From contig PXRM01000022.1 of the NCBI GenBank assembly GCA_003020985.1, forward strand, positions 1 to 64,000: DNA of 64,000 nt, read 5' to 3'. Position 1 is the first letter of the stretch. Every line of letters starts with the position of its first letter. Position numbers and translations under genes: made by a program. Origin of the DNA: Halobacteriales archaeon QS_4_70_19 (GTDB taxonomy: Archaea > Halobacteriota > Halobacteria > Halobacteriales > Haloarculaceae). The notes under the pieces are model-generated. The model saw only the letters and a list, made by a program, of their open reading frames with translations. It had not been told where the DNA came from and made no database searches. Shown here piece by piece: positions 44,453-50,996 of this stretch.

Positions 44453-44977
44453 ATGGAGAAGGTCGACATCGACGCGGTCGAGCAGGCAGCGCTGAGCGGC
44501 CCGACCGACCGGCGCGACCTCGGGCGGGCGCTGGGCGCGACGGACGTGGCGGTGATGTACTACGAACTCGACCCGGGCGACAAGTTCTCCGGCGGCTACC
44601 ACACCCATCTCGACCAGGAGGAGATCTTCCTCGTGCTGGAGGGGGAGGCGGAGTTCAAAACGAGGGAGCCGCTACGCGGCTCCGAGCCAGCGAGCGGCGA
44701 CGCCGCGAGCGAGGGAGCGAAGCTGACCGTCGGCGCGGGCGAGGCCATCCGGTTCGCGCCCGGGGAGTTCCAGACCGGCTACAACCACTACGACAACGAC
44801 GACCCGGTCCGGGGGCTGGCGCTGGGTGCGCCCGCCGGGATGGACGAGACGGTGTCCATCGTGACGTGCCCCGACTGCGGCGAGGAGGGGGAGCACGACG
44901 TCGACCTCGACGAGACCGGCGGCGTCGTGACGACGACCTGCCGGAACTGCGGGTTCGTGATCGAGACCGAGCCCTGA
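44453..44977 (+). CDS. Cupin-domain protein with C-terminal zinc ribbon (paralog 1)
   Basis: 'GGYHTHLDQEEIFLVLEGEAEF...GEAIRFAPGEFQTGYNHYD', C-terminal CPDCGEE...CRNCGF. Confidence 0.9.
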   Translation: MEKVDIDAVEQAALSGPTDRRDLGRALGATDVAVMYYELDPGDKFSGGYHTHLDQEEIFLVLEGEAEFKTREPLRGSEPASGDAASEGAKLTVGAGEAIRFAPGEFQTGYNHYDNDDPVRGLALGAPAGMDETVSIVTCPDCGEEGEHDVDLDETGGVVTTTCRNCGFVIETEP

Positions 44978-49827: not shown

Positions 49828-49914
49828 GCTAGGTGCCTGTGTGAGTGACGGGAAAGCCGTGTCGAATGTGCGTGGAGTTCTCGTGTGTCCGCACAATGGC
49901 GGCGACGGCGACAC

Positions 49915-49983
49915 CTACGAAGCCCTCGGCCGCACACACCGCGACGACGATAATCAGGATACCTACGAAGCCCTCGGCCGCTC
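49915..49983 (+). repeat. Direct repeat of acctacgaagccctcggccgc (49915-49935 and 49963-49983)
   Basis: 21-bp identical copies 48 bp apart. Confidence 0.85.
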
Positions 49984-50433
49984 GTATTGCCGGGCCTCGC
50001 TGCGCTCCTCGCTCCCCTCGGTCGCTGCGGTGCTTGTTCCGGGAGACGTTCCTGCTCGCTCGCTACGCTCGCTGCGCGGGCTGCGACTCTCGTCGTTCGG
50101 CCTGCGGCCTCACCGTCGTCCGGGAAACGACGAGCGGCCTCGCCCTTCGAGTCCGCCAGAACGTTGGTCGTGGCACGGAGCGGCGCCCCTGCCCTTCCCC
50201 GCGTCACGCGGGCTCGCTTGCGCTCGCCACGCGCTCCCGGCCGGAGAGCGGTTGCCCGGCCGGTCGGTTCCGGAGGGAACCACCAGGAGCGTCGCTCGAC
50301 CCGAAACCCTCCCCCTGGCGGAATCGAAGGGCGAGCGCTCTCGACCCGGTGAGACGACGCAAGCACCGCAGCGACCACAGGGAGCGAGGAGCGAAGCGAG
50401 TCGCAACCGGTCGAGAGCGCGAGGGCTTCGTAA
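49963..50433. repeat. ~470-bp element bounded by ~74-bp imperfect inverted repeats with nested inner repeats
   Basis: Left arm 49965-50038 vs reverse complement of 50360-50433 (both ..tacgaagccctcg....ctcctcgctccc...ggtcgctgcggtgcttg); inner arms ~50131-50155 vs ~50314-50338. Confidence 0.7.
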
Positions 50434-50467
50434 ACTCCGTTCCAGCCACATTATACAATAGAAGAGA

Positions 50468-50484
50468 GGATTAGTCACTAATCC
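50468..50484. terminator. Perfect 17-nt palindrome ggattagt-c-actaatcc downstream of cupin paralog 2
   Basis: 8-bp arms in the AT-rich segment between the inverted-repeat element and the minus-strand cupin gene; terminator or protein site unresolved. Confidence 0.35.
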
Positions 50485-50525: not shown

Positions 50526-50996
50526 CTAGCCCGGCATCTCGTGCGTCTCGCCGCACTCCGGACACTGCAGTTCCATGCCGCCGTCGCCGGGAACGAAGCG
50601 GAGCGTGTCGGACTCCCCGCAGGCCGCACACGGCTGTGGGACCCGGACGTCCGTCGAGGGCTTCGGAGCGCCGATACCGAGCAGGCGGGCCGACTCGTCG
50701 GACTCGTTCTTGCCCTGCTGGAAGTCGCCGGGCGCGAACCGGACCGCCTCGCCGCCCTCGACCTCCACATCGCCGTCGAGCGTCCGGAACGTGAGCGTCC
50801 CGTCGAGGACGTAGAAGATCTCCTCCTGGTCCATGTGGGTGTGGACGCCGCCGGAGAGGTTCTGCCCGGCGTCGAGTTCGTAGTAGCTCAGGCCCACGTC
50901 CTCCGTGCCCAGCGCCTCGCCGACCCGCCGAGCCGACTCCTCGCCGCCGCCAGGGTTGTTGTCCGCGTCGAGCTCCTCGAATGTCACTTTCTCCAT
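50526..50996 (-). CDS. Cupin-domain protein with C-terminal zinc ribbon (paralog 2)
   Basis: 'GGVHTHMDQEEIFYVLDGTLTFRTLDGDVEVEGGEAVRFAPGDFQQGKNESD', CAACGE...CPECGE. Confidence 0.9.
   Translation of the reverse strand: MEKVTFEELDADNNPGGGEESARRVGEALGTEDVGLSYYELDAGQNLSGGVHTHMDQEEIFYVLDGTLTFRTLDGDVEVEGGEAVRFAPGDFQQGKNESDESARLLGIGAPKPSTDVRVPQPCAACGESDTLRFVPGDGGMELQCPECGETHEMPG

Follow-up and report, generated by a model that had tools for sequence, protein, structure and literature searches.

Palindromic elements that encode protein segments are known above all from Rickettsia and related bacteria. The Rickettsia palindromic elements (RPEs) are bacterial repeats of about 150 bp that fall into about ten families (PMC10969869). 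Other related systems are the REP/RAYT repeats, which carry GTAG and CGTC tags (PMC3733652), and the archaeal MITEs of Halobacterium and Haloquadratum (cited in PMC10969869). Here, we analyzed a stretch of 64,000 nucleotides from Halobacteriales archaeon QS_4_70_19 (contig PXRM01000022.1; hereafter the window), in which a cupin gene carries a palindromic insert. It is highly probable, in our assessment, that this insert represents one copy of a short palindromic repeat, non-autonomous and distributed across the haloarchaea, that has invaded protein-coding genes. We observed a family of copies, a common structure, its dispersal, its presence and absence between close relatives, and a bias of strand and frame. 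Family membership and in-frame invasion are held with strong confidence, and any specific mode of transposition must be regarded as doubtful.

The insert of the window cupin gene

An earlier note on this DNA had described a palindromic, GC-rich segment inserted in frame into a cupin gene, and its letters and coordinates were found to be correct (Table 1). The segment is missing, as claimed, from the second cupin gene of the window. More telling is the direct ortholog from a congeneric genome (G049:C1:4455686-4456159; 84% protein identity, 477 versus 525 nt), which is the closest ortholog and, as the note had predicted for orthologs, is free of the insert. The net gain of 48 nt, or 16 aa, held against both the paralog and this ortholog, and corresponds to the element listed in Table 1 plus one flanking nucleotide. 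The frame stays open through the insert, where the window cupin reads EFKTREPLRGSEPASGDAASEGAKLTV and the ortholog reads EFRTEDGKVAV. The outcome that would have refuted the note, namely an ancestral, conserved loop encoded by non-palindromic DNA, was not found. The empty site of the window cupin was called from this single close ortholog.

Table 1. Positions of the cupin genes and of the element parts in the window
Feature	Position	Strand	Evidence
Host gene: cupin with C-terminal zinc-ribbon-like CxxC...CxxC tail, 174 aa	44453..44977	+	translation; Pfam Cupin_2
Palindromic element, R1 positions 1-55	44665..44711	+	cmsearch; insert-free ortholog
Hairpin 1, GGAGCCGC-TAC-GCGGCTCC, 8-bp stem, NAC loop	44665..44683	+	inverted repeat, fold, model helix 1
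Hairpin 2, GA-GCGGC-GAC-GCCGC-GA, short-loop version	44692..44708	+	letters, inverted repeat, R1
Cupin paralog without the element, comparison gene	50526..50996	-	sequence comparison

The Pfam Cupin_2 score of the host gene was 26.5 bits (E=5.4e-6), only slightly below the cut-off of 27.2, against 44.1 bits for the paralog, which is probably due to the insert splitting the domain. In a two-sequence AlphaFold model of medium confidence (mean pLDDT 65), the inserted residues (~72-89) were predicted to be largely coil, flanked by strands 65-70 and 90-94, and confidence was lowest at residues 79-81. In the absence of an experimental structure, it is inferred from this model that the insert likely forms a surface loop between two beta strands with little effect. 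A PDB search with the loop peptide gave no match, and the first contig scan with the cupin protein gave no relative.

A family of two-hairpin repeats

The DNA query for the family search was the best-preserved cupin insert, that of genomes G047 and G050 (EVLASQRDAERSSGERSDPRDISERETV), which found copies in all five genomes of the genus, mostly in unrelated genes. A covariance model (R1; 55 positions, 18 pairs) was built from 12 aligned non-cupin copies. The core of the element, ~55 nt in length, consists of hairpin 1, a short spacer and hairpin 2. The stem of hairpin 1, usually of 8 bp, varies freely in sequence yet remains complementary, and its loop has three bases, frequently NAC or GNA. 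Hairpin 2 takes the form GTC-GA-GCGGS-GA-GC-GNA-GC-GA-SCCGC-GA-GAC, in which the opposed GA steps make tandem G.A mismatches. The GC-GNA-GC cap is found on hairpin 2 and on some copies of hairpin 1, and is a documented motif of very stable DNA mini-hairpins. The d(GCGNAGC) mini-hairpins (GCGAAGC) thus present the same motif as the hairpin 2 cap, but they are a chemical motif, as opposed to the element family considered here. The window copy lacks the cap; its hairpin 2 reads GCGGC-GAC-GCCGC at positions 44694-44706 with GA on both flanks, from which we infer that this copy may be able to form the family's tandem G.A step.

The single-strand fold z-scores were weak for most single copies, and that of the window insert was only -1.1; the structural argument rests on covariation and not on stability. 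Over 92 copies, 97.8% of the cells were paired, double changes occurred in 14 of the 18 pairs, and none of 500 shuffles matched this result; the stem signal was lost when the partners were slid by 1-3 columns. The 92-copy alignment was fitted to R1 and leans towards the modelled structure; the 12-copy alignment gave the same picture. By analogy with REP sequences, the pair of hairpins suggests a single-stranded intermediate.

A narrower form of the explanation proposed above is that the repeat is of the REP/RAYT type and owes its mobility to a dedicated haloarchaeal Y1 (HUH) transposase. The paired imperfect hairpins with non-canonical G.A steps fit this idea, single-stranded hairpins are the substrate of the Y1 class, and Y1 transposases are present in all five genomes of the genus. 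However, the stem sequences are not conserved, the consensus has neither a GTAG nor a CGTC tag, and no clear copies of the element flank the Y1 loci of the genus (10 loci, one weak match nearby at 22.6 bits). Although the latter result does not exclude action in trans, we consider this form unlikely.

In intergenic copies (e.g., L166, L169, L159, L277 and L286), the arms of hairpin 1 tend to be longer and to be capped by GAGCGNAGCGAG or GAACGGAGTGAGC, and hairpin 2 often carries GCGAACGG...CCGTGAGCA. These copies may form a source subfamily that has its own role.

Taken alone, the palindrome could be a coincidence in an ordinary beta-hairpin loop of variable length, enlarged by slippage or by random indels in DNA rich in G and C. 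The corresponding segment ranges from 25 to 51 residues in cupin relatives, the fold z-score of the insert is weak, and single palindromes of such size are expected by chance: the window has seven perfect 8-bp/3-nt hairpins, and 4.2 would be expected from a first-order Markov sequence. A search for the bare hairpin 1 returned only the window copy and a few in G050. The palindrome highlighted in the earlier note is real but, taken alone, lies within chance expectation, and its significance derives from membership in a sequence-and-structure family. R1, although built from non-cupin copies, matched the insert at 45 bits (E=2.3e-7), with the second-best site of the window at 18.3 bits, and in the whole-genome search the insert was recovered at E=1e-5. 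Unrelated genes contain the same two-hairpin sequence, and slippage does not produce covariation of stems. A coincidental palindrome is therefore very unlikely, and the slippage origin that the note had entertained is unsupported.

The insert is better read as a member of the repeat family, of which R1 found 14 copies in the source genome at E<=0.01. The best copies of the element scored 80 bits against the 45 bits of the window copy, which is shortened in hairpin 2. Rfam 15 gave no above-gathering match in five copy-bearing loci. When the window insert was used as a BLASTN query against its own genome, only one other significant place was found, in the loop of another cupin paralog, and the remaining matches were mostly chance matches of GC-rich sequence. 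The recurrence in unrelated genes that the note had expected was nevertheless met through the better-preserved copy and the covariance model, and its idea of a selfish-type element is supported by related DNA in numerous genes that have nothing in common, both in this genome and across the class.

Look-alike inserts occupy the same loop in other cupin paralogs of the genus, and several of the orthologs of these paralogs are without one. R1 scored 80 bits on the cupin inserts of G047 and G050, and 49 and 55 bits on those of G087 and G089, whose hairpin 2 is read in the second sense frame. In a further paralog, the C26 cupin of the source genome (G000:C26:8986-9477; L002, L214), 21 of 22 nt around hairpin 2 of the same-loop insert are identical to the window copy. 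R1 gave 28 bits on the G050 ortholog of this paralog; the insert of the source genome itself reached 14 bits and was not found by R1. It was treated as either a degenerate copy or a product of gene conversion, and not taken as proof.

These paralogs could suggest that gene conversion among cupins moved a single loop and that no genome-wide element exists. The stretch GAGCGGCGACGCCGCGRGCGAG, common to the inserts of the window and C26 cupins, agrees with this, and conversion could explain the shared site. However, copies in LysZ, GlmS, CobN, LeuRS, PheT, PyrC and others lie in genes non-homologous to cupins. As a general account, conversion is contradicted by these copies and very unlikely; for the C22/C26 cupin pair alone it remains possible.

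Distribution, empty sites and reading frames

R1 matched, at E<=1e-3, in at least 307 of 394 sampled haloarchaeal genomes and at least 74 of 86 genera. These are lower bounds, as 14 candidates were scored per genome; deeper scans of three genomes gave copy numbers of 41, 43 and 69. In a phylum-wide sample, all 59 genomes matching at E<=1e-5 belong to the order of the window. The exact hairpin-2 core was searched in 84,980 bacterial and archaeal species genomes and found in 21 stretches, all of them haloarchaeal, from genera including Haloglomus, Halosimplex, Haloarcula, Natrialba, Natrinema, Halorubrum and Halobacterium. Neither the phylum-wide R1 sample nor the exact-core species scan, which were run without a shuffled-genome control, revealed the element outside the haloarchaea, and the exact core had no match in viral contigs.

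Repeat-rich regions were also encountered. Seven head-to-tail copies of a relative of the element, with a 77-bp period, lie in an apparently non-genic region of another genome (G399:C1:2168911-2169431; L307), and the same contig has further short arrays at 2360809-2361027 and 2739143-2739321. In the window, the region between purB and the second cupin gene (49880-50470) is dense in inverted repeats, with arms of 73 nt at 79%, 29 nt at 86% and 13 nt at 100%; it holds hairpin cores of the GAGCGAAGCGAG type and gave a partial R1 match of 15.7 bits.

Filled and empty sites were compared between close relatives. The site in LysZ is filled in the source genome and G048 and empty in G047, G049 and G050 (57 nt), and that in GlmS is filled in G047, G048 and G050 and empty in G049 (net 45 nt). 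A third cupin is filled in G047 and G050 and empty in three genomes (57 nt). The C26 cupin is filled in two and empty in two, with an ambiguous state in G048, and the window cupin is filled in the source genome and empty in G049 (48 nt). Net gains at the compared sites were 33, 45, 48 or 57 nt, with the frame preserved. No target-site duplication was recognised at five filled/empty comparisons, in which the flanks had diverged. An identical 20-nt hairpin 1, CGAGGCGCCACGCGCCTCGG, occurs in four unrelated genes of genome G124, an identity that points to within-genome copying, as far as sequence alone can tell.

Coding context was called from an open frame and a third-position GC bias on both flanks. 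By these criteria, 73 of 92 matches (E<=1e-5) were intragenic, and all 73 lay on the sense strand. As to the frame, 63 read SSGERSDPRD, 10 read the second frame (SRAGSEATRE and relatives), and none used the other four. The 73 copies include orthologs and best-scoring hits and are not 73 independent events; the tally is alignment-based and replaced a noisy regex-based one. In the partly overlapping exact-core set from named genomes, 14 of 15 intragenic calls were sense and one was doubtful. The window insert, REPLRGSEPASGDAASEG, has the strand and frame of most other copies (sense, acidic frame). Host genes in the source genome include those for a LysZ-type acetylglutamate/aminoadipate kinase, LeuRS, PheT, SufD, LeuD, Hel308, dihydroorotase, MoeA and a Rad3-like helicase. 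In Halorubrum lacusprofundi, the gene annotated as cobN carries a copy, at 89% identity, on the gene's own strand. One LeuRS gene, outside the window, has two copies (G000:C22:88908-88955 and 89511-89558; L213).

Archaeal introns are cut at structured sites, and the strong hairpins inside essential genes could call to mind such an intron or a translational bypass, but removal or skipping of the segment at the RNA or ribosome level is scarcely credible, because the examined intragenic copies are stop-free, preserve the frame and use two sense frames only, mostly the acidic one, and such confinement would be meaningless unless the copies were translated. Although no transcript or protein data are at hand, this bias of strand and frame speaks for translation of the segment, as opposed to splicing or bypass. 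In each of the six frames of the element, stop codons occur only rarely and thus do not explain the bias. The mean net charge of the used frame is -0.8, which makes it the only acidic one, against +2.0 to +4.1 for the others, and it is also the most hydrophilic. Our inference is that, in an acidic proteome at high salt, selection retains copies only in sense orientation and mostly in one frame.

In the explanation we favour, that of a dispersed repeat, copies would be moved by an unidentified activity on single-stranded DNA hairpins or by copying from another place. Those in genes would be translated as a hydrophilic loop such as SPRDAERSSGERSDPRD, and purifying selection would remove copies in other frames, which are predicted to encode basic or less hydrophilic peptides. 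The element probably adds a tolerated hydrophilic loop to each host protein. Tolerance and an apparent one-frame filter are what the data contain; no function has been seen to be gained, and the term 'domesticated' used in the earlier note goes beyond them. As a tentative proposal, to which we give slightly less than even weight, the repeats may constitute an undescribed haloarchaeal class of palindromic DNA that invades proteins. Such DNA would be recognised by the shape of its hairpins (variable stems, tandem G.A steps and GNA caps) and not by a fixed sequence, would be spread by an unidentified archaeal enzyme and would still be adding acidic loops to core enzymes, with the acidic proteome making one of six frames tolerable.

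Comparison with known systems

No earlier description of the element, its peptide strings included, was found in the open-licence literature. A class-wide archaeal counterpart of the Rickettsia elements would allow the emergence of new protein segments from selfish DNA to be tested in haloarchaea, where relatives that can be cultured offer clean empty sites and insertions lie in LeuRS, PheT, GlmS, LysZ, SufD and CobN. For annotation and structural biology there is also a warning, namely that dispersed repeats account for some of the 'haloarchaeal insertions' in conserved enzymes.

Like the MITEs, the element is a small, non-autonomous repeat, but no long terminal inverted repeats or target-site duplication were recognised, the flanks at the compared sites having diverged, and it has an internal double hairpin instead. 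It resembles REP sequences, whose mobile form is thought to be a single-stranded hairpin, in consisting of short imperfect hairpins that are often paired and sometimes intragenic (PMC3733652). It departs from the REP/RAYT systems of the same report in having no GTAG or CGTC tag (alignments A1 and A2) and variable stem sequences, and no RAYT neighbour was found.

The parallel with RPEs drawn in the earlier note applies to behaviour and not to descent. Both RPEs and the haloarchaeal element are short dispersed palindromes that occur in frame in unrelated genes as well as between genes and encode a conserved peptide (PMC10969869). The RPE length of ~150 bp is not met by inserts of 33-57 nt. There is no sign of common descent, although this judgement comes from the exact-core scan, which returned haloarchaea only, and not from a direct alignment to RPE sequences. 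In contrast to RPEs, the element adds about 33-57 nt net, is built of two GC-rich hairpins with variable stems, and is archaeal and class-wide; it is, as judged from the sequences compared, unrelated to RPEs in sequence and RPE-like in behaviour.
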